From Bacillota bacterium (GTDB lineage Bacteria; Sysuimicrobiota; Sysuimicrobiia; Sysuimicrobiales; Segetimicrobiaceae), in contig JAJPJL010000055.1 in NCBI GenBank assembly GCA_021324255.1, positions 1 to 36,084 of the forward strand: 36,084 bases of DNA. The letters are read 5' to 3'. Made by a program: the position numbers and the translations under genes. Below, piece after piece: positions 5,893 to 20,458 of this stretch (its first letter is position 1; every line of letters begins with the position of its first letter). A model generated the notes under the pieces. It worked only from the letters and a program-made list of their open reading frames with translations. It was not told the origin of the DNA and ran no database searches.

Positions 5893-7175
5893 GGGACGCT
5901 CTCCTGGGTGAAGATGACGTCGGACCGCCCGGCGCCCACCCCGATCATCGTGATCGGCACGCCGACGATCTCCTCGATCCTGCGGAGAAAGACGCGCGCC
6001 TCTACGGGGAGGTCCGTCAGCCGGCGCGCGCCCTGCGTCGGCGCGCGCCAGCCGGGCAGCTCCTCGTAGATCGGCTCCACGCGCCCCATCGCCGCGGTGT
6101 GGGGCACGGTGTGCACGGTGCGGCCGTCGAGGCGGTACGCGACGGCGAGACGCACCGCGTCGAACGTGTCGAAGATGTCGAGCTTCATGACGGCGAGCTG
6201 CGTGAACCCCGCCACCTCGGCCGCAAACCTGGCCGCGACGCCGTCGAACCATCCGCACCGCCGCGGCCGGCGCGTGGTGGCGCCGTACTCCTGCCCGAGC
6301 TCGCGGATCAGGTCCCCGGTGGCGTCGCACAGCTCCGTCGGCATCGGACCCGCGCCCACCGCCGTCGTGTACGCTTTGGCGATCCCCAGCACGCGGGTGA
6401 TGCGGTACGGCGGGATGCCCGCGCCGGCCGACGCCCCTCCCGCCAGCGTCGTCGACGACGTCACGTACGGATACACACCCCAATCGAGATCGCGCATCAC
6501 CCCGAGCTGACCTTCGAGCAGGATCATCCGGTCGGCCCGCAGCGCCTCCTGGATGAGCGGATGCGTGTCGGTGATGTACGGGCGGAGGCGATCGGTCCAC
6601 CGCCCGCAGCGGGCCAGCATCGCGCCCGCGTCCACGGGCTCGTGGCGGTAGACGCCGCGAAACAGCGCGCTCTTGCGGGCCGCCACGAAGCGGATCTGCT
6701 CCGTGAGATGCCCCGCTTCGAGCAGATCCCCGACCCGAATGCCGGTGCGCCCCGCCTTGTCGGCGTACACGGGCCAGATGCCCTGCTTGGTCGTCCCGTG
6801 CGGCGCGCCCCCGCGCGCCGCCTCCTCCAGCTCGTCCATCGCGATGTGATACGGAAACACGAGGTGCGCGCGCTGATCGAGCCAGAGCCGGCCGACCGTG
6901 GGCACGCCGGCGCGTTCGACCTCGTCGATCTCCGAGAGCAGCGCGTCCGGGTTGACAACCACGCCGGGGCCGACCACGCACTGGGACGCCGGGTGAAAAA
7001 TGCCGGACGGCAATAGATGCAGCCGGAACGTTCCGCGCTCGTTTTGGATCGTGTGGCCCGCATTGTTCCCGCCGTTGTAGCGGACGACCACGTCGGCGTG
7101 GGCCGCGAGGGTGTCGACGACTTTGCCCTTGCCCTCGTCGCCCCACTGGGCTCCTACGATCGCCGTCACCGGCAT
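5889..7175 (-). CDS. purA: Adenylosuccinate synthetase PurA
   Basis: GTP-dependent condensation of IMP with aspartate, first step to AMP. 428 aa, the normal length. It begins MPVTAIVGAQWGDEGKGKVVD with the GDEGKGK phosphate-binding loop, then RYNGGNNAGHTI (IMP site), and continues with GPGVVVNPDALL and KLDIFDTFD in expected order. The stop overlaps the purB GTG. Upstream lies a 109-nt spacer after purE that contains one copy of the dispersed repeat, one of the larger gaps in an otherwise tight operon. Confidence 0.96.
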   Translation of the reverse strand: MPVTAIVGAQWGDEGKGKVVDTLAAHADVVVRYNGGNNAGHTIQNERGTFRLHLLPSGIFHPASQCVVGPGVVVNPDALLSEIDEVERAGVPTVGRLWLDQRAHLVFPYHIAMDELEEAARGGAPHGTTKQGIWPVYADKAGRTGIRVGDLLEAGHLTEQIRFVAARKSALFRGVYRHEPVDAGAMLARCGRWTDRLRPYITDTHPLIQEALRADRMILLEGQLGVMRDLDWGVYPYVTSSTTLAGGASAGAGIPPYRITRVLGIAKAYTTAVGAGPMPTELCDATGDLIRELGQEYGATTRRPRRCGWFDGVAARFAAEVAGFTQLAVMKLDIFDTFDAVRLAVAYRLDGRTVHTVPHTAAMGRVEPIYEELPGWRAPTQGARRLTDLPVEARVFLRRIEEIVGVPITMIGVGAGRSDVIFTQESVP

Positions 7176-7242
7176 CTAACTCACCCGATGGCCGGCCGGA
7201 TGTGCCCCGGACGCGCCGGCGCACGCCGCGGGCCCAGCAAAA

Positions 7243-7290
7243 TCCGGCCGGCGCGGACCCGTGCCGGAGCCGGGCGAAGACGCATCAGCG
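7243..7290 (+). repeat. Dispersed intergenic repeat, copy A
   Basis: A 48-bp unit in the purE-purA spacer. It begins with a CCGGCCGG core, has GGACCCGTGCCGGAG in the middle and ends GACGCATCAGCG. It aligns without gaps to copy B at 19577 with 36 of 48 identical bases by my hand count. The last part includes the purE stop codon (7287-7285). The TCCGGC and GCCGGA arms can form a hairpin. It lies antisense to the pur genes. Confidence 0.6.
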
Positions 7291-7815
7291 CGTCTCCCGC
7301 GGCGGCGCCATGCCGGCTTCGGACGACGCCAGCCGCGCCGCCTTCTCCTCGACCTGCGCGGCGAGCTTGGCCTTGTACGCGCGGACGCGCTCGCGGAGCG
7401 CCGGGTCGCCGACCCCGAGGATCTGCGCCGCCAGCAGGGCGGCGTTGCGGGCCCCCCCGATCGCGACGCACGCCACCGGCACCCCCGAGGGCATCTGCAC
7501 CGTGGACAGGAGCGCGTCCATTCCGCCGAGTGCTCCTCCCGGCAGCGGCACGCCGATCACGGGCAGCGCGGTCCGTGCGGCGACCACCCCGGCCAGGTGC
7601 GCCGCCGCGCCGGCGCCGGCGATGAGGACGTGGATGCCCCGCCCCTCGGCCTCGGCGACGTACCGCTCGACGCGGTCAGGCGAGCGGTGCGCCGACGCGA
7701 TCGTGAGTTCGTACGGCACGCCGAACTCCGCCAGCAGCCGGCCCGCCTCTTGCATGAGCGGGAGATCGGAGTCGCTCCCCACGAGAATCCCCACGCGGAC
7801 GCTCGCGCCTGTCAC
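7285..7815 (-). CDS. purE: N5-carboxyaminoimidazole ribonucleotide mutase PurE
   Basis: Class I PurE, which converts N5-CAIR to CAIR and normally works with PurK; no purK is in the window. 176 aa. VGILVGSDSDLPLMQEA and SAHRSPDRVERY are the phosphate and substrate loops, and AGAGAAAHLAGV and GVPLPGGALGGMDALLS follow. The chosen start is GTG at 7815, overlapping the purD stop (GTGA) and preceded by GGAGGTG; the frame also stays open upstream inside purD by chance. The C-terminal 10-15 residues are low complexity, and the last codon and stop lie in repeat copy A. Confidence 0.94.
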   Translation of the reverse strand: MTGASVRVGILVGSDSDLPLMQEAGRLLAEFGVPYELTIASAHRSPDRVERYVAEAEGRGIHVLIAGAGAAAHLAGVVAARTALPVIGVPLPGGALGGMDALLSTVQMPSGVPVACVAIGGARNAALLAAQILGVGDPALRERVRAYKAKLAAQVEEKAARLASSEAGMAPPRETR

Positions 7816-9119
7816 CTGGACACCTCCTCGACGGCCTGCGCGGTCTCCGTCATGACCGGATGCCATCCGATCCCGATGTCCCGCCGCAGGGTCTTGCCGG
7901 CAAAGTCGATGCGCGCCGCCATGCCGTACGCGCGCGAGCGGGCCTCGCCGACCGAGCCGCCCGTGCCCACCACGTTCAGGACGCGGCCGCCGGCCGTGAC
8001 GAGGCGGCCGTCCCGCACCGCGGTGCCGGCGTGGAACACGAGCGTACGGTCGTCGCCCGGGGCGGCGTCGAGCCGCTCGATCACGTCGCCCGCGCGCGGC
8101 CGGTCCGGATAGCCCGCGGCGCAGAGCGCCACGCACACCGCCGTCTCGGCCCGCCATCGCAACGCGAGCCGGCTGACGTGTCCCGCCAGGACGGCGTCCG
8201 CGATCTCGAGCAGGCTCGTCTCCAGAAGCGGGAGCAGCGCCTGCGCCTCCGGGTCGCCGAAGCGCACGTTGAACTCGAGGACGCGCGGCCCGTCCGGCGC
8301 GAGCATCACGCCGGCGAACAGCACGCCGCGATACGTCCGCCCCTCCTGCGCCATCGCCCACAGCGCGGGCGCGAGGATCTCGTCGACGATCCGATCCAAC
8401 ACCCCGTCGGGCACGCCCGGCGCGGGCGCGACCGCGCCCATGCCGCCCGTATTGGGCCCGCGGTCGCCGTCGCCGAGGCGCTTGTAGTCGCGCGCCGCGA
8501 TCAACGGGACGAGATCGACGCCGTCCGTGACGGCAAACACGCTCAACTCCCGGCCCGGGAGCACTTCCTCCACGACGATGCGCGCGCCGGCGTCGCCGAA
8601 GCGCCGCCTGAGCATCAGCGTCTCGACCGCGGCCACGCCCTCGTCCGCGGACCCCGCGACGACGACGCCCTTGCCAGCGCAGAGGCCGTCGGCCTTCACC
8701 GCGAGAGGGCGCGCCGCGCGGCGCACGTACGCCGCCGCCGCCTCGCCGTCGTCGAAGACGCGAAACGGCGCCGTCGGGATCTCATACCGGGCGCACAGCG
8801 TCTTCATGAAGACTTTGCTGGCCTCGAGCTCGGAGGCGGCCCGCGTCGGCCCGAACGCCCGCAGCCCGCGCGCCGACAAGGCGTCGACGAGGCCCGCGGC
8901 AAGCGGCGCCTCGGGCCCGATCATCACAAGGTCCGTCGACAAATGCTCGGCCGCGGCGACGACCGCGCCGGTGTCGGAAATGTCGCACGGGATGCAATCG
9001 GCTACGGTCGCGATGCCGGGGTTGCCGGGGGTGCAAAAGAGTGTGGCGCCGCCCCGGCTGTGGAGGGCCCACGCGAGCGCGTGTTCCCGACCTCCGGATC
9101 CCACGATGAGGACTCGCAC
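7812..9119 (-). CDS. purD: Phosphoribosylamine-glycine ligase PurD
   Basis: ATP-grasp ligase making GAR from phosphoribosylamine and glycine. 435 aa with the GTG start at 9119, the usual length. It begins VRVLIVGSGGREHALAWAL, the PurD N terminus; GPEAPLAAGLVDAL, KADGLCAGKGVVVA (ATP-binding lysine loop) and DRGPNTGGMGAVAP follow. An alternative GTG at 9203 would lie at or upstream of the predicted transcription start, so it is rejected. First gene of the pur operon, with a leader of about 80 nt and a GAGGTG ribosome binding site. Its stop overlaps the purE start. Confidence 0.95.
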   Translation of the reverse strand: MRVLIVGSGGREHALAWALHSRGGATLFCTPGNPGIATVADCIPCDISDTGAVVAAAEHLSTDLVMIGPEAPLAAGLVDALSARGLRAFGPTRAASELEASKVFMKTLCARYEIPTAPFRVFDDGEAAAAYVRRAARPLAVKADGLCAGKGVVVAGSADEGVAAVETLMLRRRFGDAGARIVVEEVLPGRELSVFAVTDGVDLVPLIAARDYKRLGDGDRGPNTGGMGAVAPAPGVPDGVLDRIVDEILAPALWAMAQEGRTYRGVLFAGVMLAPDGPRVLEFNVRFGDPEAQALLPLLETSLLEIADAVLAGHVSRLALRWRAETAVCVALCAAGYPDRPRAGDVIERLDAAPGDDRTLVFHAGTAVRDGRLVTAGGRVLNVVGTGGSVGEARSRAYGMAARIDFAGKTLRRDIGIGWHPVMTETAQAVEEVSR

Positions 9120-9205
9120 CGGGCCGCGCACCTCATGCGCCGCGATCGGAATAGTTCGGGTTTTACGGACGATGCTGCGAAGAGGGAGCGACGACGTCCT
9201 CACGG

Positions 9206-9234
9206 ACTATAGCATACGGAAACTAACATGCCAA
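9206..9234 (-). promoter_or_regulatory. Promoter of the purine operon (sigma-70/SigA type)
   Basis: Minus strand: TTGGCA (9234-9229), 17-bp spacer, TATAGT (9211-9206). Transcription should start near 9199, leaving a leader of about 80 nt before the purD GTG at 9119. It lies in a short AT-rich island within very GC-rich DNA, between divergent purD and the ketosynthase gene. I see no PurR box or purine riboswitch fold in the leader. Confidence 0.7.
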
Positions 9235-9343
9235 GGATCGCGCGCATTGTTCGTGTTTTGACCGGGCACGTCGTCCCGGGGGCAAGGAATGGCGCCGGCG
9301 CTGGCGAAGGTTTGCACCAACTTTCCGGCTGGAGGTCCCTGCG

Positions 9344-10579
9344 GTCCGCGCGGTCATCACGGGGATTGGGGCGGTCACGCCCGTGGGCCTGTCGGCCCCG
9401 GGGACCTGGGCCAACCTGGTAGCGGGTCAAAGCGGCGTTCGTCCCCTCACCCGCTTCGACGCCTCCCAGTATCCGGTCAGGATCGCGGCCGACGTCCCCG
9501 GGTTCGATCCGCTTTCGGTCATGACCCGGAAGCGCGCGCGCCGGACCGCCCGGTTCGCGCAGTTCGCGGTCGCCGCCGCGCACGAGGCGCTGGCCGACGG
9601 CGCCCTCGCGCTGCGGGACGACCTGCTCGATCGCGTCGGCGTGACCATCGCGACCGCGCTCGGCGGGATCAGTGAGATCGACGCGGAAGCGCCGCGGCTG
9701 TACGGCAGCTCGCCCCACCGCGTCACCCCGTTTCTGCTGCCCATGCTCATCGCGAACATGGCCTCCTCGGCCGTCAGCATTCACTTCGGCATCCGCGGGC
9801 CGTCCAATACCTCGGTGGGCGCGTGCGCGAGCGGCGCGATCGCCCTCGCCGAGGCCCGGCGCTGGCTTCTCGACGGCGACGCGGATTACGTGCTCGCCGG
9901 CGGGACGGAAGCCGCCCTGACGCCGTCCGTGTGGGCCGCGCTGTGCTCGCTCGGCGCGCTCAGCACGCGCAACGACGCGCCCGAGCAGGCCAGCCGCCCG
10001 TTTGATCGGGACCGCGACGGGTTCGTGTACGGCGAAGGCGCGGTCGTGTTTCTGGTGGAACGCGAGGACGTGGCCCGGCGGCGCGAAGCCCGCATCTACG
10101 CCGAGCTCGCCGGCGCGGGGCTCACCAGCGACGCGTACCACGAGACGGCGCCGCGGCGGGACGGTGACGTGGCGGCCGCGGCCATGCGCCAGGCCGTGCA
10201 CAGCGCCGGGGCCGTGCCCGACCAGGTGGATTTGGTCGTCGCGCACGGCACCGGCACGCCGCTCAACGACATCGCCGAGACCCTCGCGATCAAGCAGGCA
10301 CTCGGCGCGCACGCGCGGGCGGCCCTCGTGACCGCGCCGAAGAGCATGGTCGGCCACCTGATCGGCGCCGCCGGCGCGCTCGCGGCCATGGTGGGCGTGC
10401 TCGCGATCCACACCGGCCGGATCCCGCCGACGATCAACCTCGAGCATCCCGATCCCGCCTGCGATCTCGACTACGTCCCGCTCGTCGCACGGCGTGCCCG
10501 CGTAGGGCTGGCCGTCGCGAACGCGTTCGGCTTCGGCGGTCAAAACTCCGTGGTGGCGGTTCGTGCCCACGAGCGGTAG
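9344..10579 (+). CDS. fabF: Beta-ketoacyl-ACP synthase II-like (FabF family), start codon unclear
   Basis: Condensing enzyme of type II fatty acid synthesis. The Cys-His-His triad is complete: SVGACASG (Cys about 161), AHGTGTPLND (His about 301) and KSMVGHLIGAAG (Lys333/His338), numbered from 9344. Full length from 9344 is 411 aa, matching FabF of about 413. The conserved first strand VRAVITGIGAVTP lies upstream of the first canonical start in frame, GTG at 9383. Between the upstream stop (9224-9226) and 9383 there is no ATG, GTG or TTG in this frame. A GGAGGT at 9331-9336 sits 7 nt before GTC at 9344, the best-placed start if it were GTG; CTG at 9329 is another option. Divergent from the pur operon. 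Confidence 0.88.
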   Translation, partial: VRAVITGIGAVTPVGLSAPGTWANLVAGQSGVRPLTRFDASQYPVRIAADVPGFDPLSVMTRKRARRTARFAQFAVAAAHEALADGALALRDDLLDRVGVTIATALGGISEIDAEAPRLYGSSPHRVTPFLLPMLIANMASSAVSIHFGIRGPSNTSVGACASGAIALAEARRWLLDGDADYVLAGGTEAALTPSVWAALCSLGALSTRNDAPEQASRPFDRDRDGFVYGEGAVVFLVEREDVARRREARIYAELAGAGLTSDAYHETAPRRDGDVAAAAMRQAVHSAGAVPDQVDLVVAHGTGTPLNDIAETLAIKQALGAHARAALVTAPKSMVGHLIGAAGALAAMVGVLAIHTGRIPPTINLEHPDPACDLDYVPLVARRARVGLAVANAFGFGGQNSVVAVRAHER

Positions 10580-10703
10580 GACCCGCCGCGCGCGCCACCG
10601 AACTGCATGGCGGGCATCCGGGTCCCGCTCACACTCGACGCCACGAGCGCCCGCGGGTCGCGGGCTGCGGCGATCCCGACACGTGTAGCGAGGAGGCGGA
10701 GCC

Positions 10704-11513
10704 GTGTTCGAAGGGACGTTTCAGGGCAAGGTTGCCCTCGTCACCGGCGCCTCCCGCGGCATCGGGCGGGCGACGGCCGAAACGCTGGCGCGGGGCGGCG
10801 CCGCCGTCGTCGTCCACTACCACCGCAACCAGGCGCTGGCCGAAGGCGTTGCCGCCGCGGTCCTCGAGCGGGGCGGGCGCGCCGTCGCGGCCGGCGCGGA
10901 TTTAGAGAAGCCCGACGAGATCGACCGCCTCTTCGAGCTCGTCGCCGAGCGGTTCGGCGCGCTCGACTTCTTCGTGGCGAACCACGCGGCGACGGCGTTC
11001 AAGACCACGCTGGACGCGAAACCCCACCACCTGCAGCGCACGTTCGACCTCATCCTGCGGTCGCTCGCGCTGTGCGTGCAGCGCGCCGTGCCGCTGATGC
11101 AGGGACGCGAGGCGGCGATCGTCACGATCGGCGGCCAGGGGACCGTGGAGATGCTGCCGCACTATGCGATCCTGGCCTCCGCGAAGGCGGCGCTGGAGAC
11201 GTGGACCCGGTACCTCGCGTATGAGCTCGCCGGGCGCGGCATCACGGCCAACTGCGTGAGCCCGGGTGTGATCTTGACGGATTCGGCGCGGCACTACGGG
11301 GGCGACCGCTTCGCGGAGTTCGACCGCCTGGTCTCCACGTTCGCGCCCGCGGGCCGCATGGGGCAGCCGCAGGACGTCGCGGATGCCGTGGCGTTCCTCT
11401 GTAGCCCGGGAGCGCGGTACATCCTCGGGCAGACGATCGTCGTCGACGGCGGCTTGGGGCTCGTGTCCGCGCCGTTCGAGTTGTTCCGGCGGCGGGGGGA
11501 GGTGCGCGCGTGA
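10704..11513 (+). CDS. fabL: FabL-type enoyl-ACP reductase (short-chain dehydrogenase fold)
   Basis: SDR-fold oxidoreductase, 269 aa, GTG start after an AGGAGG site. The Rossmann motif TGASRGIG is at residues 14-21. The catalytic residues are spaced Y154-x6-K161, not the Y-x3-K of FabG-type ketoreductases. Y-x6-K is the spacing of enoyl reductases FabI and FabL. The stretch after it ([15 protein letters not shown]), the APAGRM motif and the GQTIVVDGG end resemble Bacillus subtilis FabL from memory, while TGxxxGIG argues against FabI. I therefore infer an NAD(P)H-dependent enoyl-ACP (or enoyl-CoA) reductase. It follows the ketosynthase by 124 nt, a gap with no evident signal, and its stop overlaps the next start (GTGA). 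Confidence 0.75.
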
Positions 11514-12373
11514 ACAAGGTCATCAGCACCGACCAGGTGATCGCGGAGATCCCAAACGGCGCCACGGTCGCCATCGGGGGCTCGTCGCTGTCGCGCAAGC
11601 CGATGGCGCTGGTCCGGGCGCTCGCGCGGAGCGACCGGCGCGATCTGCGGCTCATCGTCAACGTCGGCGGCCCCGAGGTCGATCTGCTGATCGGCACCGG
11701 CAAGGTGGCGGAAGTGATCTTCGCGTTCGTGGGGTTCGAGGTCATGGGCCTGGCGCCGCACTTCCGGCGCGCCCGCCAGGACGGCGCCCTCAAGTTTCAG
11801 GAGTGGACGGAATATACGGTGATGGCCGGGCTCGACGCGGCGATCAAGCGCGTGCCGTTTCTTCCGACGCACTCGACCCTCGGCACGGACGTCCTGCGGC
11901 ACAGCGCCGCGTTCACGACGATCCAGGACCCGTTTCACGGCGAAACGCTCGTCGCGGTGCCGGCCCTGCGGCCGGACGTGGCGCTCCTGCATGTCAATCT
12001 CGCGGATCCCCAGGGCAACGGCGTCGTCCTCGGCGACGGCCACATGGACGCGCTGTGCGCCAAGGCGGCCCGCAAGACGTTCCTGTCCGCGGAGCAGATC
12101 CTCCTCCCCGAGCGCCTGCAGACGTACGGCCGCGACGTGCACATCTTCCGCACCATGGTCACCGGGGTCGTGGAGGCGCCGTGGGGGGCGCACTTCACCG
12201 GGTGCGCGCCGGAGTACCGGGCGGACCTGCAGCACGTCCAGGAGTACCTCGGGGCCGCGCGCGACGGCGCCGGCTGGCACGAGTATCTGGAACGGTACGT
12301 CTACGTGAATCACCGCGACTACGTGCGCGCGCTCGGCGGCGAGCGGACGCTCGGTGAGCGGCTGCGAGTCTAG
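11510..12373 (+). CDS. Family I CoA-transferase, subunit A (GctA/IpdA-like)
   Basis: 287 aa alpha subunit of a two-subunit CoA-transferase. The N terminus [20 protein letters not shown] is the usual family I start, with the glycine-rich turn GGSSLSRKP. The central [21 protein letters not shown] and [15 protein letters not shown] patterns fit the GctA/IpdA branch (glutaconate CoA-transferase; in actinobacteria IpdA of sterol ring degradation). The GTG start overlaps the upstream reductase stop, with GGGGGGAGGTG before it. Substrate is unknown; the catalytic glutamate should be on subunit B. Unlike most such pairs, subunit B does not follow at once but after 251 nt. Confidence 0.82.
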
Positions 12374-12624
12374 TGGAGCGTCTTTGATGTTTGACGAGGG
12401 TAGTTGGGCCGGCCGGATCTGCTCGGAGCGGGCGTTCGACGCCCGCGGTGCGCACGTGTGCCTCCGCATTTTCGCTTGTGCGGCGGACAAAGCGACAACG
12501 CGGAATCGGGTAGGCGTCGGTCCGCTGAGCGAAGGGCAGGTCCGGCCGGCTCGAACCCTTGCCGGAGTGCGTGCTGCAACGATGCGGTGACAAGGGCACG
12601 GCGACGAGACCGAAGGAGGATCCC
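12374..12624 (+). other. 251-bp structured spacer between CoA-transferase subunit genes
   Basis: No convincing ORF. It contains a tight hairpin at 12428-12446 (GCGGGCG/CGCCCGC around TTCGA), a second potential hairpin where CCGCA and TGCGG pair around TTTTCGCTTG, and dispersed repeat copy C at 12541. The stretch from about 12406 to 12446 also has a CCGGCCGG-n-CGGAGC-GGGCG layout like the repeat and may be a decayed copy. The last bases hold the AAGGAGG ribosome binding site of subunit B. It could be an inserted non-autonomous element or a leader controlling subunit B. Confidence 0.5.
12541..12568 (+). repeat. Dispersed intergenic repeat, copy C
   Basis: The 28-bp core matches copy B (19577) at 24 of 28 positions by hand count, including the contiguous block GAACCCTTG. 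TCCGGC and GCCGGA arms flank a 14-nt loop. Downstream similarity fades, with only a GCAA...GATGCG remnant. Sense orientation relative to the flanking CoA-transferase genes. Confidence 0.6.
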
Positions 12625-13470
12625 ATGACCGAGTACAGCGTCGACGAGCAGATCATCACGTGCATGGCGCGCGAGCTGCGCGGCGAGTACCTGGTGAGCT
12701 CGGTGACCGCGTTCGGGTCGCTCGCCGCCCACCTGGCGAAGAGCACGCACGCGCCTGACCTCGCGGTGCTGTCGACGCCGGAGTCGGGCATGGACGCCGT
12801 GCCGCTGCCGACCCTGTCGCTGGGCCAGTTCCTGACCGAAAACCAGCGCGCGATCCCGCTGACCATGGAGGACATCTTCGACGCGATCTTCACCGACCGG
12901 TTCCGCATCTGGATCAACCCGGCGCAGATCGACCAGCACGGCAACGTCAACATCTCCGTCATCGGCGCGTGGGACAGGCCCAAGGTCGCGCTGGTGGGCT
13001 CGCGGGGCATCCCCGAGGACACGAGCCACCTCTCGCAGGGCCTGTACTACCTGACGCAGCACACACCGCGCACGGTCGTCGAGCACGTCGACTTCATCAG
13101 CGGCGCGGGCTACAACCCGGAGCGGCGCAAGACGCTCGACGGCCACGGCGCCCCCACGTGCCTGGTCACGAACCTGGGGGTGTTCGGCTGGGACCCGGAG
13201 TCGGGCCGGATGTTCGCGCGCAGCCTGCACCGGGGCGTCACCCCGGACACGGTGCGCGAGGCGACCGGATTTGCGATCGAGCTCGGCTCTCGGATCCCGA
13301 CGACGGAGCCGCCGACGGCGGAGGAGACGGCGATCATCCACGCCGCCGACCCCCTCGAGGTCCGCAAACTCGAGCTGCTCTCCGGGAAGGAAGCGGCGGA
13401 GAAATTCGCCGCCATCTACGAACGCGAGCGGCAGGCGCTGCACGCCGCCTGGCCCCGCCGCCGGCAGTAG
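12625..13470 (+). CDS. Family I CoA-transferase, subunit B (GctB/IpdB-like)
   Basis: 281 aa beta subunit, ATG preceded by AAGGAGGA. The segment LAVLSTPESGMDA carries Glu53 in an E-S-G context, matching the position of the catalytic glutamate of family I beta subunits that forms the acyl-glutamyl anhydride. FRIWINPAQIDQHGNVNISVIG and GSRGIPEDTSHLSQGLYYLTQHTPRTVVEHVDF are typical of this branch. The C-terminal helix is charged and ends in Arg/Gln. With subunit A it should form an active transferase, or a thioester hydrolase/lyase as in the IpdAB group; the acyl substrate cannot be read from sequence. Confidence 0.82.
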   Translation: MTEYSVDEQIITCMARELRGEYLVSSVTAFGSLAAHLAKSTHAPDLAVLSTPESGMDAVPLPTLSLGQFLTENQRAIPLTMEDIFDAIFTDRFRIWINPAQIDQHGNVNISVIGAWDRPKVALVGSRGIPEDTSHLSQGLYYLTQHTPRTVVEHVDFISGAGYNPERRKTLDGHGAPTCLVTNLGVFGWDPESGRMFARSLHRGVTPDTVREATGFAIELGSRIPTTEPPTAEETAIIHAADPLEVRKLELLSGKEAAEKFAAIYERERQALHAAWPRRRQ

Positions 13471-13478
13471 CGGGCTCG

Positions 13479-14255
13479 GTGGATTTCGCGGTCCCGGGAT
13501 CGCTGCGCGGCCGGCGCGCGGCCGTGACGGGCGGCGGCCGCGGCATCGGCCGTGCGACGGCGCTGCGGCTGGCCGGTCTCGGCGCCGACGTCGCGGTCAT
13601 CGCCCGGACGGAGGCCGAGATCGCCCGCGTCGCCGCCGATGTCGAGGAGCGGGGCGTGCGGGGCCTCGCCCTGGCCGCCGACCTGACCACGTCCGCGGCA
13701 TGCCGGGCGGCCGTCGAGCGGGTGACCCGCACGCTCGGCGGGCTGGAGATCCTCGTCAACAACGCCGGGTGGACGCTGACGAGCGCGTTTCTCGACGAGG
13801 ACGAGGCCTACTGGCGGCGCGTCGTGGACGCGAACTTCTGGAGCACCGTGTTTTGCAGCCGCGCCGCGCTGGAATGGATGACCGCGCACGGCGGAGGGAC
13901 GATCGTGAACGTGGCCAGCGACGCTGGGCGCGTCGGCACCGCGGGGGAGGCGATCTACTCCGCGGCCAAAGGCGGCGTCATCGCGTTGACCCGGTCGCTC
14001 GCGCGGGAAATGGCGCGCCATCAGGTGCGCGTCAACTGCGTCTGCCCCGGGCCGACCGAGACGGCGGTGCTGACGGAGAACCAGAGCGATCCCGCGCACG
14101 CCGGGAAGATCGAGCGGATGATCCGGCTGATCCCCATGCGCCGCGTGGCGCAGCCCGAGGAGATCGCCGACGCGATCGTGTTTTTCGCGAGCGACGCCTC
14201 GCGGTACGTGACGGGTCAGGTGCTCAGCGTCTCCGGCGGGCTGACGATGGTGTAG
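13479..14255 (+). CDS. Short-chain dehydrogenase/reductase (FabG-like)
   Basis: 258 aa classical SDR. Cofactor motif TGGGRGIGRA near residue 18, NNAG at the middle of the fold, the serine in NVASDAG and active-site AIYSAAKGG giving Y-x3-K, then PGPTETAV. This is ketoreductase-type spacing, unlike the FabL-like enzyme upstream, so the two SDRs probably do different steps: 3-ketoacyl reduction here, enoyl reduction there. The GTG start at 13479 lies 8 nt after the CoA-transferase stop; the frame is open upstream by chance. It could also be a hydroxyacyl-CoA dehydrogenase of the BadH kind. Confidence 0.82.
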   Translation: MDFAVPGSLRGRRAAVTGGGRGIGRATALRLAGLGADVAVIARTEAEIARVAADVEERGVRGLALAADLTTSAACRAAVERVTRTLGGLEILVNNAGWTLTSAFLDEDEAYWRRVVDANFWSTVFCSRAALEWMTAHGGGTIVNVASDAGRVGTAGEAIYSAAKGGVIALTRSLAREMARHQVRVNCVCPGPTETAVLTENQSDPAHAGKIERMIRLIPMRRVAQPEEIADAIVFFASDASRYVTGQVLSVSGGLTMV

Positions 14256-14259
14256 GCAG

Positions 14260-15312
14260 ATGGCGGTGAACGGCGGGCCGATCCGCATCGCAGTGGACTG
14301 CATGGGCGGCGACCGGGCGCCGGGCGAGATCGTCGCGGGCGCGCTGGCGGCCGCGCGCGCCCACGGGCTCTCCCTGCTCCTCGTCGGCATCCCGGAGGCC
14401 GTGGCCCCGCTCCTGCCCCACGAGCCGTCTGCCGCGGGCGCGGATCCGGCGAGCCGGACGGTGGAGCTGGTGCCCAGCGACCGCGCGGTGCCGGAGGGGG
14501 CGCCGCCCCTCGCGACGCTCCGGGCGATGCCGAACGCGTCGATGTCGGTGACGATGCGGCTGATCCGGCAGGGCCGCGCGGATGCCGCGATCAGCGCGGG
14601 CAGCACCGGGCCGACGTTGCTGGCGGCGATCCGCGAGATCGGGATGATCGAAGGCGTCCGGCGCGCCTGCGTCGGGCGGCAGATCCTGGAGATCCACCCG
14701 GAGACGTTCCTGATCGACCTCGGGCCGACGATCGACTGCGAGGCGCACCACCTGGTCGAGTTCGCCGTGATGGGCACGACGTACATGCGGGTCTTCGGCG
14801 GCGTGGCGGAGCCCACGGTCGCGCTCCTCAGCAACGGCCGCGAGCCCGGCAAGGGCAACAAGGTCGTCAAGCAGGCGGCGGATCTCCTGGCGCGCAGCGG
14901 CCTCCGCTTCGTCGGGCTCCTGGAGGGGCACCACCTGATGGCCGGGGAGGCCAACGTCGTCGTGTGCGACGGGTTCGTCGGCAACGCGGTGCTCAAGACC
15001 GTGGAAGGGCTCGGCCGCGAGGCCGCGGCGTGGCTCCGGCGCGAGCTCGACGGGGTCGTCCCGGCCGCCCGGGCGGACGAGATCGCCCGGCGGCTGGTCG
15101 CGTGGACCAACCCCATCGACCTCCAAGGCAGCCTCCCGCTGCTCGGCGTCCGCGGCAACGTGGTGATGGCCCACGGCGCGTCGGATCGGACGGCGATCCA
15201 AGCGGCGATCGGGCAGGCCGTGGACGCGGTGCGCGGCGGCTTTGTCGAACGGCTGCGCGCGGCGCTCGGCGATATGCGCGAGCACCTCGGCCGCACCACG
15301 ACGCGCTCCTAG
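14260..15312 (+). CDS. plsX: Phosphate acyltransferase PlsX
   Basis: Makes acyl-phosphate from acyl-ACP for phospholipid synthesis by PlsY; peripheral membrane enzyme. 350 aa, normal length. Motifs: IRIAVDCMGGDRAPGEIVAGAL at the N terminus, AAISAGSTGPTLLAA in the middle, ALLSNGREPGKGNKVVKQA, and VVVCDGFVGNAVLKTVEG. It starts ATG 4 nt after the upstream SDR stop, so it is operonic. PlsX links this cluster to acyl-ACP metabolism and suggests the ketosynthase and reductases feed membrane lipid synthesis. Confidence 0.92.
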   Translation: MAVNGGPIRIAVDCMGGDRAPGEIVAGALAAARAHGLSLLLVGIPEAVAPLLPHEPSAAGADPASRTVELVPSDRAVPEGAPPLATLRAMPNASMSVTMRLIRQGRADAAISAGSTGPTLLAAIREIGMIEGVRRACVGRQILEIHPETFLIDLGPTIDCEAHHLVEFAVMGTTYMRVFGGVAEPTVALLSNGREPGKGNKVVKQAADLLARSGLRFVGLLEGHHLMAGEANVVVCDGFVGNAVLKTVEGLGREAAAWLRRELDGVVPAARADEIARRLVAWTNPIDLQGSLPLLGVRGNVVMAHGASDRTAIQAAIGQAVDAVRGGFVERLRAALGDMREHLGRTTTRS

Positions 15313-15342
15313 GGCCGCGCCTCGGGCGCACGAGGGTGGACG

Positions 15343-15387
15343 GGCCGGCCGAGCCGCGGACCCATGCCGCAGCCCGGCCGTGACGCG
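15343..15387 (+). repeat. Dispersed intergenic repeat, copy D (divergent)
   Basis: In the 100-nt spacer after plsX. Compared with copy A it shares GGCCG, then after a 3-nt insertion CGCGGACCC-TGCCG-AGCC with few changes, and a trailing TGACGCG like the GACGC of the others. Same plus-strand orientation. The weakest of the four copies, since random similarity is easier in such GC-rich DNA. Confidence 0.45.
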
Positions 15388-15412
15388 CCCGCGCAGGCGA
15401 AGGGAGAGGACG

Positions 15413-15952
15413 ATGGATCGACCGGCACCCGAACCGCCGCAATTCCCAGCCGGGGCGTACGAGGTCCCCGGCGACTACGAGGATGGACGCCTCCGCGCCC
15501 AGATCGCGGAGATCGAGCATGCGCCGGTGCGGCTGCGGGCGGCGGTGGCCGGCCTCGCCGGGGATCAACTCGGCGCGGTGTACCGGAACTGGTCGATTCG
15601 GCAGATCGTGCACCATATCGCCGACAGCCATCTCAACGGCTACATCCGGTTCAGGCTGGCGCTCACGGAGGAACGGCCGACGATCAAGCCCTATGACGAG
15701 AGCAGTTGGGCGCGCCTGGAGGATGCGCTCACCGCCGACGTGGAACCATCACTGCGGCTGCTGGAGGGTGTCCACGCCCGGTGGGTACACCTGGCGCGAT
15801 CGCTTCCCCGGGACGCGTGGCTTCGGGCCTTCTATCATCCCGAGAGCCGGGAGACGGTGCCGCTGTGGCGTCACCTCGACCAGTACGCCTGGCACGGGCG
15901 GCATCACACGCAACAGATCGTCTGGGTGAGGGAGCACCGGCTCACGCCATAG
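15413..15952 (+). CDS. DinB/YfiT-family putative metal-dependent hydrolase or thiol transferase
   Basis: 179 aa, ATG after AGGGAGAGG. The four-helix DinB fold is supported by the metal-ligand pattern: RQIVHHIADSH (His67) and DQYAWHGRHHTQQI (His161 and His165), a spacing like Bacillus subtilis YfiT. The segment YIRFRLALTEERPTIKPYDE also matches the YfiT subgroup. Members bind Zn or Ni and some transfer bacillithiol or mycothiol; the thiol used here is unknown. It follows plsX by 100 nt containing repeat copy D, so cotranscription is uncertain. Confidence 0.82.
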   Translation: MDRPAPEPPQFPAGAYEVPGDYEDGRLRAQIAEIEHAPVRLRAAVAGLAGDQLGAVYRNWSIRQIVHHIADSHLNGYIRFRLALTEERPTIKPYDESSWARLEDALTADVEPSLRLLEGVHARWVHLARSLPRDAWLRAFYHPESRETVPLWRHLDQYAWHGRHHTQQIVWVREHRLTP

Positions 15953-16096
15953 GCCGCGCCGCTCGTGCCGGCCTGCGGGGAATCATCCGACGGGTGCCCC
16001 GAGCCGCGGGGCGCAGCCCGTTGGCCGTCTGCACGCCGGCGCCGGCCGGCCCCGGCGGCGAGCGCCGCCGACACGCAACACCGTGGGGGACCATCG

Positions 16097-16813
16097 ATGC
16101 GACTGTACATCATGCAACTCGGCATCAACCCGGCGGCGGGGTCGCCGTACCCGGGGTACCTGATCCAGGTCGGCGACGGCACGAACGTCCTCGTGGACAC
16201 CGGCTTCGGCCCGAAGATGGTCGAGGTGAGCCGCCAGCCGGGCCATCAGGGCGCCCGGATCACCGAGGACGACCTCGTCGTCAACCAGCTGGCCCGCATC
16301 GGCGTCCGCCCCGAGGACATCACCCACCTCGTCGCGACGCACTTCGACGGGGATCACGCGGGGTGCCTCACCGCTTTTCCGCGCGCGGAGATCGTCGTCC
16401 AGCGACGTCACTACGAGACCGCGAAGTCGGGCCACCCGCGCTTCGCAGGCACGCGCGAGCAGTGGGACGATCCCCGGCTGCGGTACCGCCTCGTCGACGG
16501 CGACACCACGTTGCTCCCCGGCATCGAGCTCATCGAGACGAGCGGCCACGTGCCGGGGCATCAATCCGTGCTCGTCCGGCTGCCCAAGACCGGTCCGGTC
16601 CTGCTCGCCATCGACGCGATCGCCCGCGCGCTCGGGGACCACACGCCCGAGACGCGGCCCATGGGACCATACGATCTGGACGAGGCGGGGACCCGCGCCA
16701 GCACGCGCAAGCTCGTGGACCTCGCGGCGCGCGAGGGCGTCAAGCTGATCGTCTACGGACACGATCCCGAGGAGTGGAAGAAGCTCAAGAAGGCGCCGGA
16801 GTTCTACGCCTAG
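16097..16813 (+). CDS. Metallo-beta-lactamase-fold hydrolase (N-acyl homoserine lactonase-like family)
   Basis: 238 aa. The first metal motif reads THFDGDHAG: His82, Asp84, Asp86, His87, i.e. H-x-D-x-D-H with Asp where most family members have the second His. Other expected ligands are present: GHVPGH (His151/155), Asp173 in AIDAI, and His222 in VYGHDPEEW. The layout (LVDTGFGP near residue 33, GHVPGHQSV, terminal YGHD) fits the AttM/AiiA-like lactonase branch, though many members are not quorum-quenching enzymes. The ATG at 16097 is chosen because homologues start with a short strand like MRLYIMQLG; the frame is open further upstream. Convergent with fdhD. Confidence 0.8.
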   Translation: MRLYIMQLGINPAAGSPYPGYLIQVGDGTNVLVDTGFGPKMVEVSRQPGHQGARITEDDLVVNQLARIGVRPEDITHLVATHFDGDHAGCLTAFPRAEIVVQRRHYETAKSGHPRFAGTREQWDDPRLRYRLVDGDTTLLPGIELIETSGHVPGHQSVLVRLPKTGPVLLAIDAIARALGDHTPETRPMGPYDLDEAGTRASTRKLVDLAAREGVKLIVYGHDPEEWKKLKKAPEFYA

Positions 16814-16840
16814 CGGGAGCAGCGCTGGAAGGCGGCGGAC

Positions 16841-16855
16841 GCGCCGGGCCGGCGC
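16841..16855. terminator. Possible short hairpin between convergent genes
   Basis: GCGCCGGGCCGGCGC is a near-perfect palindrome in the 44-bp gap between the convergent hydrolase and fdhD genes. There is no T-run on either side, so this is only a candidate bidirectional terminator; such GC palindromes arise easily here. Confidence 0.25.
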
Positions 16856-16857
16856 GA

Positions 16858-17775
16858 TCAGTGGCGCGCGCCGCCTCGGTCCGGCGCGTGGACACGCACG
16901 CGCTCGGCGCCGCTGTACACGTTGAACTGCTCGCCCCGGAGAAAGCCCACCAGGCTCACCCCGAACTCCCGCGCGGTGTCGACCGCCAGGCTGCTCGGCG
17001 CGGAGACGGCGCAAAAGACGGGGATCCCCGCCGCCGCCGCTTTCTGCACCAGCTCGAAGCTGGCGCGCCCGCTGACCATCACGACATGGAGATCGAGCGG
17101 GACGCGCCCGTCGAGCCAGGCCCAACCGACCAGCTTGTCCATCGCGTTGTGCCGGCCGACGTCCTCCCGGAGCGCCACGAGACGACCGTCGCGGTCGAAG
17201 AGCGCGGCGGCATGCAGGCCGCCGGTGGCGGCGAACAGGCTCTGCGCCCGCCGGAGCGTCCCCGGCAGCGCGGCGAGCGTCCCCGCGTCCACGACGAGGC
17301 CGCCGCGGACATGCGCGAGACCGCGCAGGCGCAGCGCCTCCAGGGTCGCCTTGCCGCAGACGCCGCACGCGCTCGTCGTGTAGAAGTGCCGTTCCAGCGC
17401 GGCGAGCGCCGGCAGGACCGGCGACCGCAGCGCGACGTTCACGATGTTGTACTGCTGCGCGCGGTCGACCTCGGGGTCCGCGCAATACGACATGCGCGCG
17501 ATCTCATGCGGGTCGCGGAGCACGCCCTCGCCGAACAGGAACCCCGCGGCGAGCTCGAAGTCATGGCCGGGCGTGCGCATCGTCACCGCGACCGTGCGCG
17601 TCTCGCCCCCGGCCACGAGCCGGATCTCGAGCGGCTCCTCGGTGGCGACGACGTCGGTGCGCGGGGCGCTCGCGCCCGCGCGCACGGTGTGGATCGCGAC
17701 GCGCGTCTTCGCCCCGGCCCGCACGGCCGTGCCGGCCGGCTCCCCGCGGCGGGGTACGCGCCCCGCGCTGCCCAT
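16858..17775 (-). CDS. fdhD: Formate dehydrogenase accessory sulfurtransferase FdhD
   Basis: Delivers sulfur from a cysteine desulfurase to the Mo(or W)-bis-MGD cofactor, required for active formate dehydrogenase. 305 aa. The redox-active CGVCGK motif is present (Cys137/Cys140), with TEEPLEIRL and MRTPGHDFELAAGFL before it and DVGRHNAMDKL and VSGRASFELVQKA after it, all FdhD hallmarks. Start ATG at 17775 with GAGGAGGGCGGG upstream; the frame is open further into the neighbouring gene. Last gene of the minus-strand formate dehydrogenase region, 32 nt after a solute-binding protein gene. Confidence 0.95.
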   Translation of the reverse strand: MGSAGRVPRRGEPAGTAVRAGAKTRVAIHTVRAGASAPRTDVVATEEPLEIRLVAGGETRTVAVTMRTPGHDFELAAGFLFGEGVLRDPHEIARMSYCADPEVDRAQQYNIVNVALRSPVLPALAALERHFYTTSACGVCGKATLEALRLRGLAHVRGGLVVDAGTLAALPGTLRRAQSLFAATGGLHAAALFDRDGRLVALREDVGRHNAMDKLVGWAWLDGRVPLDLHVVMVSGRASFELVQKAAAAGIPVFCAVSAPSSLAVDTAREFGVSLVGFLRGEQFNVYSGAERVRVHAPDRGGARH

Positions 17776-17807
17776 GACGATCCCGCCCTCCTCGGTCGGG
17801 GCGGCCC

Positions 17808-19418
17808 CTACTTCCACGTCGCGTAGATGGCCGCCCACTTCTCCGTCGGTACGATGCTCACGCCCTCGAGGTGGCTGCTCGTCACCACGTAGAAGTTCTG
17901 CGCCCACAGGAAGATCCAGGGCGCGTCATGCCAGATCAGCTCCTGCGCCTGCTTGTAGATCGCCCGGCGCTGCTCCGGGTTCATGGTCGTCTGCCCGGCG
18001 AGCAGCAGCTCGTCCACCTTGGCATCCTTGTAGAACGTGGAGATGTAGCCGTGCGGCGGCCACAGGCCGGAGTAAAAGACGCCGAAGAGCTGGGAGGCCG
18101 CATCCAGGTACGGACCGGCCTGCCCGAGCATGTACATCTGAATCGGCGTGCGGTCCGCCGGGGTCGCGAGCGCGCCGATGTAGCTCGGCCAGTCGGCGGT
18201 CTCCACCGCGGCCTTGACGCCGACGTTGGCGAGCTGCGCGGCGATGGCCTGGGCGGCCTGATAGTCCTGGATGTAGCGGCCCGTGGGCGCCCGGAACGCG
18301 ACGCTGAAGCCTTGGGGGTAGCCGGCTTCGGTGAGCATCCGCTTCGCGCGCGCGGGATCGAACGGCCAGCCGCCCGGCTGGATCCGCGTGTAGCCGAACT
18401 GGTTGGGCGTCGTCGGCGCTTCCAGCACGGTCGCGAGGCCGAAGAGCACACTGTGGATGATGGCCTGCTTGTTGACGGCGTAGTTCATCGCCTGGCGCAC
18501 GCGCACGTCCTTGAACGGGCCCCAGAGGTTGTTCATCCCCACCCAGATCGCGCGGTCGGTCGGGCCCTCCACGACGCGCAGCGACGGATCCCTGCGCATC
18601 GCGGGCACGTCGGGCGCGGGCGGCGCGAACGCCATCTGCACGTCGCCCGCGCGCAGCATGGTCTCGCGGGTCCCCGCGTTGGGGACGACGCGGAAGATCA
18701 CCTGGTCGAAGTACGGCTTGCGCCCCCAGTAATCGGGATTGCGCACCAGCGTGATGTGGTCGCCGTGCACCCACTCCTTGAAGATGTACGGCCCGGAGCC
18801 GGCGTTGACCGGTCCCAGCGCGAGCTTGGCGTTCCCCAACGCCTTGGCCGCGGCCGGCGACACGATCTCGGCCGCCGTGGTCGCCAGCTCTTCCGGCAGC
18901 GTGGCGCTCGGCTCCTTGAAGTGCAGCACGATCGTGTAGGGGTCGGGGATCTCGATCCGGCCGGTGTCGAGCGCGCTCCAGTAGTAGCGTGACGAATTCC
19001 GGACCGACGGATCCAGCATCCGCTCGATGTTGAACTTGACGGCCTGCGCGTCGAAGGGGGTGCCGTCTTGGAACTTGACGCCCTGGCGCAGCTTGAACGT
19101 GTACGTGCGGCCGTCGGGGCTCGCCGTCCACGAGGTCGCGAGCTGCCCGACGAGCTTGGTGTACTGCGGCTGCCCCGGGGCGACGCCGGACCGCTCGTCG
19201 TTGTACCAGATCAGCGGATCGTAGATGTAGTCCACGATGTTCGAGACCGTGGCGGTCGTCTGCCCGGCCGGGTCCAACGTGTCCGCGTCGATGCCGAGCG
19301 CGATCGCAAGGGTGGCCGGCGCCGCCGCCAGGCCGCCTCCCGGCACGCCCGCCAGCGCCGCAAAACCGAGACACGCAGCGACACCGGCCGTCACAAGCCG
19401 CGTCGTTAGGGTGGCCAT
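17808..19418 (-). CDS. ABC transporter substrate-binding protein, family 5 (peptide/nickel type)
   Basis: 536 aa secreted or lipid-anchored binding protein. N terminus MATLTTRLVTAGVAACLGFAAL is a signal peptide; VAAC could be a lipobox, though an AAAPA cleavage site is equally possible. ALGIDADTLDPAGQTT, YDPLIWYNDE, WTASPDGRTYTFKLRQGVKFQDGTPFDAQAV and the long C-terminal lobe are typical of OppA/DppA/NikA-type proteins. The ligand cannot be inferred. No permease or ATPase of this class is in the window, so it is an orphan here, between the formate dehydrogenase genes and fdhD. Confidence 0.88.
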   Translation of the reverse strand: MATLTTRLVTAGVAACLGFAALAGVPGGGLAAAPATLAIALGIDADTLDPAGQTTATVSNIVDYIYDPLIWYNDERSGVAPGQPQYTKLVGQLATSWTASPDGRTYTFKLRQGVKFQDGTPFDAQAVKFNIERMLDPSVRNSSRYYWSALDTGRIEIPDPYTIVLHFKEPSATLPEELATTAAEIVSPAAAKALGNAKLALGPVNAGSGPYIFKEWVHGDHITLVRNPDYWGRKPYFDQVIFRVVPNAGTRETMLRAGDVQMAFAPPAPDVPAMRRDPSLRVVEGPTDRAIWVGMNNLWGPFKDVRVRQAMNYAVNKQAIIHSVLFGLATVLEAPTTPNQFGYTRIQPGGWPFDPARAKRMLTEAGYPQGFSVAFRAPTGRYIQDYQAAQAIAAQLANVGVKAAVETADWPSYIGALATPADRTPIQMYMLGQAGPYLDAASQLFGVFYSGLWPPHGYISTFYKDAKVDELLLAGQTTMNPEQRRAIYKQAQELIWHDAPWIFLWAQNFYVVTSSHLEGVSIVPTEKWAAIYATWK

Positions 19419-19497
19419 ATCATCCGCCCCACGGGGGGCACCCCCTTTCGGCGTCCCGCCGCCGGGCAGTGATTGCGCGCCGCGCACGACTCGGGGA

Positions 19498-19530
19498 CGT
19501 GTCCGCGTTCCTTACTTCGGCGCGGACACG
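19498..19530. other. 10-bp inverted repeat hairpin after the formate dehydrogenase operon
   Basis: CGTGTCCGCG (19498-19507) and CGCGGACACG (19521-19530) pair perfectly around a 13-nt loop. It lies in the 200-nt gap between the iron-sulfur gene stop and the binding-protein start. No T-run follows on the minus strand, so it may be a terminator of unusual type, an RNA-processing or stabilising hairpin, or a protein site. Confidence 0.5.
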
Positions 19531-19576
19531 CCGCGGCCCCTGTGCGCGTTGCGCACGGCGCCGGTGCGTGATCGCA

Positions 19577-19624
19577 GACGGCCGGCTTGAACCCTTGTCG
19601 GAGTTCGGCAATGACGCATCAGCG
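19577..19624 (+). repeat. Dispersed intergenic repeat, copy B
   Basis: 48 bp, collinear with copy A (36/48 identical) and matching copy C in its first 28 bp (24/28). Contains CGGCCGGCTTGAACCCTTG and ends GACGCATCAGCG. As in copy A, the final part includes the stop codon (19621-19619) of the adjacent minus-strand gene, here the iron-sulfur half of formate dehydrogenase. The stem change GCCGG to GTCGG keeps a G-U pair. Confidence 0.6.
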
Positions 19625-20458
19625 GCCGCCCGGATCCGGGTTCACATACGTAAATCCGAACCGTCCCTTGACGCACAGGTTGCCGCGCGTGATGTCGTGG
19701 TCCGCGGGAGACGTGACCTTGACGATGCGGTTGCCCTGCACGTGCAGCTCGAGGGCGCAGCCCACGCCGCAGTACGGGCAGATCGTCTCCGCAACGTGCT
19801 GCCGGCTCTCGTCCCACTCGCCCGCCTGCCGCATCCGGTGTTCGATCAGGGGCATCAGGGCGCCGGTCGGGCACACCGCCACGCAGTTTCCGCAGAAGAC
19901 ACAGCGTGACTCCAGGAGCGGCGCGTCGGCCCCGGTGTCGATGCGGGCCGCAAACCCGCGGCCGGCGACCGTCAGCGCAAACGTATGCTGGGCGTCCTCG
20001 CCGCAGGCTTCGACGCACTTGTAGCAGAGGATGCACTTCGCGTAGTCGCGTACGTACAGGTCGTTGTCGTCGCGCAGCGGTTCGAGGACCCGCGCGACGT
20101 CGCTGCCAAACCGCGCCGGGTCGCCGTGGTACGCGGCGAGGTGCGCGGCGAGCTCGGGCGCCGTGGAGGTGTCGACCGACGACGCGAGCATCTCGAGGAC
20201 GACCTTGCGGGCCCGGCGGACGCGCTCGGTGTCCGTCCGCACCCGCATCCCGGGTTCCACGCGGCGCGAGCAGGACGGCACGAGGGCGCGGCTGCCCTCC
20301 ACCTCTACGACACAGGCCCGGCAGACGTTGACCGGCGTCAGGTTGGGATGGTAGCAGAGGGTGGGCGCGTCCATGCCGGCGCGCCGGAGCGCTTGCAGGA
20401 TCGTCATCCCCTCGTCCGCCCCGAGGGTCCGCCCGTCGACCTCGATGACAATGCTCAT
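19619..20458 (-). CDS. Formate dehydrogenase alpha subunit, detached N-terminal iron-sulfur half
   Basis: 279 aa electron-transfer protein. Domains in order: [2Fe-2S] ferredoxin-like (Cys35, 46, 49, 63); two [4Fe-4S] ferredoxin motifs (Cys142/145/148/152 and Cys186/189/192/196); then the small [4Fe-4S] domain that in one-chain enzymes starts the molybdopterin domain (ICPYCGVGC with Cys227/230/234, and NLCVKGRFG with Cys262). The His-Cys cluster seen in NuoG and many FdhA proteins is missing; residues 91-140 have no Cys. The protein ends FTYVNPDPGGR, exactly where homologues continue into PDRLxxPLIR, which here begins the catalytic gene 22260-24224. ATG overlaps the NuoF-like stop (ATGA). Confidence 0.88.
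   Translation of the reverse strand: MSIVIEVDGRTLGADEGMTILQALRRAGMDAPTLCYHPNLTPVNVCRACVVEVEGSRALVPSCSRRVEPGMRVRTDTERVRRARKVVLEMLASSVDTSTAPELAAHLAAYHGDPARFGSDVARVLEPLRDDNDLYVRDYAKCILCYKCVEACGEDAQHTFALTVAGRGFAARIDTGADAPLLESRCVFCGNCVAVCPTGALMPLIEHRMRQAGEWDESRQHVAETICPYCGVGCALELHVQGNRIVKVTSPADHDITRGNLCVKGRFGFTYVNPDPGGR

Follow-up and report, generated by a model that had tools for sequence, protein, structure and literature searches.

The window analysed here is a stretch of 36,084 nucleotides, contig C84 of the 3.74-Mb draft genome (G000) of a soil bacterium. It carries four copies (A to D) of a short dispersed repeat, all of which were found at the sites given in a preliminary description; A, B and D group into one family of 46-nt direct repeats, in which B shares 78% and D 67% identity with A. 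The boundaries given at first were too small, and the elements were redefined at positions ~7177–7287 (A), 12370–12592 (C), 15309–15393 (D) and 19564–19621 (B), all annotated on the plus strand. Copy A is a complete short element between the stop codon of purE (TCA at 7285–7287 on the plus strand, TGA on the minus strand) and the start codon of purA (CAT at 7173–7175), and now supplies the sequence upstream of the latter. Copy C is a full-length element, consisting of a long palindrome with a tip of ~64 nt and a degraded right end, and its left TAG (12371–12373) is the stop codon of an ORF at 11510–12373 with a CoA-transferase domain. The segment 12541–12568 (plus strand), initially taken as the whole repeat, is only the right arm of copy C, and was recognised as the right end of a 218-bp element when genomic copies were aligned. 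Copy D is a tip-deleted form of 85 bp, the left TAG of which (15310–15312) is the stop codon of an ORF at 14260–15312 with an FA_synthesis domain. Copy B is a short form with a decayed left end, where a GTGCGTGATC remnant was identified by eye, and its right end (TCA, 19619–19621) is the stop codon of a minus-strand ORF at 20458–19619. The copies do lie between genes, as was proposed, yet not simply so: each of the four is flush on a stop codon. The left end of C and D adjoins a plus-strand gene, and in A and B it is the right end that adjoins a minus-strand gene. Elsewhere in the window (24536–25251), a 38-nt direct repeat occurs four times, with identities of 74% and 71% to the reference and spacings of 327, 192 and 159; it is probably a repeated coding motif.

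The length of the element varies from ~58 to 310 bp, the 218-bp form being the commonest. The full element is a long imperfect palindrome with arms of ~79 bp and a variable tip, in which the two ends pair with each other over most of the element, both in single-sequence folds and in the consensus of 17 aligned copies. Instead of the stem around a conserved 14-nt loop that had been suggested, full-length copies form a stem between the right arm and a left arm at a distance of up to ~218 nt. A short hairpin was not confirmed either, as the short copies A, D and B fold no better than shuffled sequences (z of −0.74, −0.2 and −1.28, respectively); the long copy C does fold better than its shuffles (z of −4.06). 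The ends are inverted repeats, the left one reading GYGCnnCRTC... and the right one its complement, each beside TA, usually as CTAG, and most intact copies display TAG at both ends. The tip exists as a ~64-nt version with GCGGGCGTTCGACGCCCGC, as longer versions in the congener G001, as a 23-bp module in contig C51 of G000, or is missing in a tipless form of ~82–86 bp. It is flanked on both sides by a CCGGCCGG repeat, which would offer a route for its deletion. Tip deletion is supported by the comparison of copy D (85 bp) with a 225-bp full-length element at the orthologous stop codon in G001, since both carry CCCATG, while the other copies mostly have CCCTTG. The 23–24-bp module (GACGTnCTGGYTCACGCCGTAGGC) is also a separate dispersed repeat in six of the 12 genomes of the family. 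With up to two mismatches it was found five times in G000, 20 in G001, 15 in G004, nine in G007, 35 in G008 and eight in G010, the reversed control giving 0 in all 12. It occurs with a tandem spacing of 23 bp in G008 and stands alone in G004, besides forming hairpin tips of the present elements; the tip of copy A (near 7216–7233) is a diverged version of it.

The distribution of the element was investigated with a covariance model of 220 positions built from 17 full-length copies and run over 43 genomes, a search that the preliminary description had proposed. Many matches were indeed obtained, 37 in G000 (three of them reverse-strand duplicates) and 46 in G001, where the set of elements has diverged from that of G000. 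Weak matches were obtained in G005 (five, best E-value 6.9e-5), G020 (one, 0.029) and G036 (one, 0.07), and none in the other 38 of the 43 genomes, the congener G002 among them. Using one full copy as BLAST query, 67 matches were obtained at E-values up to 10, including those of the palindrome against its own other arm; the ten best full-length matches in G000 shared 80–100% identity with the query copy across most of its 218 bp, and their flanks were unrelated. A DNA query over the 43 genomes returned G000, G001 and two weak single matches, and the exact core was present in the own genome only among 41 genomes. A 23-base core was detected solely in Centralia_MAG_233 when a wider genome-contig collection was scanned, from which the genome of the window was possibly left out. 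Four of the five matches in G005, which belongs to another genus of the same family, resemble each other (L130, L133, L136 and L139; 70–79% over ~100–160 bases) and have similar arms. One G005 match directly follows CTAG, and this genome probably harbours an older relative of the family. The claim that all copies share one orientation was not upheld, as individual contigs such as C108 and C101 carry copies on both strands. A strand rule relative to replication was rejected for the same reason, and a draft assembly gives no orientation for its contigs.

Comparison with relatives revealed occupied and empty sites for all four window copies, which are the marks of insertion. At the purE–purA junction, G002 (CGATAGATG) and G005 (CCGTAGATG) show a TAG stop followed by ATG with no spacer, while stop and start overlap in G003 and are one base apart in G004. 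In G000, the same junction reads CGCTGA, the element and GTTAGATG, that is an insert of ~110 bp with GTTAG before the ATG of purA, and a longer element (~285-bp insert) is present in G001. In two species, such an element thus separates two genes whose operon joint is seamless in relatives. TA(G) flanks the insert of G000 on both sides, one side having decayed to TGA, which would reflect a duplication of TA, TAG or 4 bp. The C site holds a full element in G000 and a truncated element in G001, and none in G002, G003, G004 and G005. The truncated element (contig C126 of G001, ~12637–12720) follows the same stop codon as the one at 12370 of the window and belongs to a different subfamily, which suggests repeated use of one target. 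At the D site, the short form of G000 and the long form of G001 occupy one orthologous stop, and no element follows the same gene in G002–G005, where the upstream gene alone is syntenic. G001 lacks copy B at the corresponding site. As three of the four sites (A, C and D) are filled in both G000 and G001, many insertions are old or the same stop codons were hit twice, as at site C with its differing subfamilies; part of the set is thus old, and current activity is not implied.

Taken together, repeats A to D are very probably copies of a non-autonomous MITE family, that is an imperfect palindrome with inverted-repeat ends inserted into the TA of a CTAG target with a probable duplication of TA. 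The elements are too small for a transposase gene. Of the two possibilities named earlier, a mobile or an RNA element, the mobile one is supported by the dozens of copies recovered and by the occupied and empty sites among relatives. Mobilisation would occur in trans, by a transposase of IS630/Tc1-mariner type. G000 and G001 each contain one IS630-type DDE_3 match, and G002 contains two; none of these four loci bears the ends of the element. With 0–1 mismatch the left-end pattern retrieved only known copies and no new element; with up to three mismatches it gave 129 matches against 69 in the reversed control, with no autonomous partner among the matches listed. An autonomous element with matching ends was thus not found by these searches or by the search for DDE_Tnp_1 described below, in an assembly that is 95% complete; possibly the elements are cross-mobilised, or the source has been lost or remained unassembled.

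A variant of the MITE reading, possible but clearly less probable than an IS630-type enzyme acting on TA, is that the mobilising enzyme is of IS5 type and duplicates 4 bp (CTAG). Several copies show CTAG, TTAG or GTAG at both ends, and MITEPsy1 (100 nt) is reported to duplicate CTAG or YTAA and to resemble ISPsy2 (PMC3189936). Reading the ends by eye, the base preceding TAG was found to be the same on both sides in some copies (T/T in C27, G/G in C40), whereas several others have different bases before the two TAGs, which argues against the IS5-type variant. The CTAG target itself is supported by the C that precedes TA in 27 of 32 left-flush copies, and both a TA and a longer duplication (TAG or 4 bp) fit the end readings. 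No gene for PF01609 (DDE_Tnp_1), the one IS5-type model covered, was detected in G000 or G001, while the same search was positive in nine of 14 control genomes.

The link with stop codons was quantified on 67 copies, namely 65 of the 83 matches in G000 and G001 plus copies A and D of the window; 13 partial-model matches, the three reverse-strand duplicates and two weak full-length matches (C94:2357-2568 and C92:1485-1587 of G001) were excluded, and the left ends of the G001 copies in C70 and C42 were extended by hand from BLAST hits. A stop codon was accepted when it closed a frame open for at least 60 codons with a codon-position G+C content typical of coding sequence, gene calls being made by a heuristic of frame and third-position G+C and not by a gene finder. 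By this criterion, 46 of the 67 copies provide the stop codon of a coding-like frame with at least one of their ends (left only in 28, right only in 14, both in four). In this genome of 71% G+C, CTAG is scarce and often lies at TAG stop codons. Gene calls placed 26 CTAGs at stops, 27 between genes and 23 within genes, and over 436 kb including the window, 27 of 48 non-genic CTAGs outside elements were stops by the same test. The stop-codon link is therefore mostly explained by the choice of CTAG and the loss of gene-breaking insertions, and the excess over this baseline for all 67 copies gave p = 0.24. It became significant only after dropping the 10 copies without a stop triplet at either end (46/57 versus 27/48, p = 0.010). 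Significant targeting of stop codons beyond the choice of CTAG was accordingly not established.

Two further readings attribute a role in the host to the position after stop codons. The first, which is unlikely, considers a MITE lineage specialised on stop codons as safe landing sites, where it would serve as an interchangeable cassette of the 3'-UTR. With a constant palindromic stem and swappable tips (long, 23-bp module or none), the cassette would set the fate of the mRNA 3' end for dozens of genes in one lineage, and its arms would stay complementary through RNA selection. Distinctly less probable still is a host-useful 3'-end module kept after stops, such as a terminator or an mRNA-stabilising or RNase III-cleaved hairpin. 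The 46 of 67 flush copies, the comparison restricted to 57 copies and the preponderance of left-only over right-only stop ends (p = 0.044) are in line with such a module, but the test on all copies is not. In addition, no T-tract terminator-like site falls at a copy in the region 7000–20000, and copy A breaks up two operon genes that relatives join without a gap.

It is equally improbable that the copies were dispersed because they function as a structured regulatory RNA, be it a riboswitch, an attenuator or an sRNA. In the 17 full-length copies without large inserts, 95.7% of the cells of the consensus structure are paired, compared with 92.7% in shuffles and 30–40% when the structure is slid. 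Double changes affect 11 of the 52 pairs versus 6.0 in shuffles (one of 500 as high), and the covariation score is 0.209 versus 0.159 (none of 500 as high). However, all double changes are located in the palindrome arms (helices 1, 2, 4 and 5), and the tip helices 8 and 9 are free of them. Several of them, for example CG to GC at columns 49–184, are one change common to six G001 copies, and independent covariation events are therefore few. Palindrome arms can be matched to one another by correction of the DNA itself, with no selection on RNA, and such correction would explain the covariation as well as RNA selection would. The covariation thus supports maintained palindrome arms and not a riboswitch. 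Moreover, the copies adjoin unrelated genes by either end and are present in two of three congeners only. No match to Rfam was obtained in the window at the gathering score, which agrees with the initial statement that the repeat fits no named repeat or riboswitch family; a riboswitch or other named RNA was rejected on this ground. At a lax threshold, positions 7000–20000 gave two unrelated matches only, with E-values above 2 and neither at a copy.

Chance similarity of G+C-rich intergenic sequence can practically be dismissed: the core pattern is not above chance within the window alone (five matches versus 3.17 expected with up to two mismatches), so that the test had to be genomic, and there it occurs at six distinct sites of G000 against 0 in the reversed control, while each of the four copies scores above all 500 of its dinucleotide shuffles against two or more of the three family copies from elsewhere that served as targets (the exception being A against the G001 copy, where 13 of 500 shuffles scored as high).

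Under the MITE reading, the element would first enter a CTAG site at its TA, with TA duplicated. When the target is a TAG stop codon, the first base of the element, a G, would restore TAG, so that the gene survives and the insertion would be tolerated. Some copies would later lose their hairpin tip, probably by deletion between the CCGGCCGG repeats at its base, for which slippage is a plausible route, giving rise to the short forms of the window. The family is short, palindromic and non-coding, and is inserted into stop codons with the host genes left intact. It offers a clear case of short mobile palindromes spreading through a very G+C-rich genome without gene breakage, because many CTAG targets lie at stop codons and the stop is rebuilt by the element itself. 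Knowing the family would also keep genome annotators from mistaking these repeats for riboswitches. A limited literature search found neither the present family nor a stop-codon MITE in this lineage; the elements, recorded here at four sites of the window, accordingly form a new family of a known type, one without earlier label within a familiar class of bacterial mobile elements.

Among known systems, REP/REPIN are short single palindromes with a RAYT transposase, from which the present family differs by its long inverted ends and flanking TA. IS630 reportedly prefers TA within CTAG (work attributed to Tenzen and Ohtsubo, 1991), and the CTAG target, probably with TA duplication, is alike here, whereas a transposase bounded by such ends did not turn up. 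MITEs with TA termini and long stems form a recognised class in bacteria, represented by RUP (repeat unit of pneumococcus, 107 bp), Correia/NEMIS and ERIC (PMC2229807). RUP and the TA-flanked MITEs share with the present family a small non-coding sequence, terminal inverted repeats, TA termini, a long stem-loop and many intergenic copies. The present elements are not known to be related to them in sequence and are set apart by their very high G+C content, longer palindrome and exchangeable tip, and RUP is linked to IS630-Spn1, while no partner IS was found here. MITEPsy1 of Pseudomonas syringae is likewise a MITE inserting at CTAG, but is reported to have a 4-nt duplication, IS5-type ends and 18-nt inverted repeats of another sequence (PMC3189936). 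Finally, the BOX repeat of Streptococcus pneumoniae supplies the stop codon of genes, as seen for 36 of 58 overlapping CDSs (PMC3049150). BOX differs by its boxA-B-C layout, its host and its link to ISSpn2 ends, and resembles the present family in providing a stop codon and in having a variable middle.
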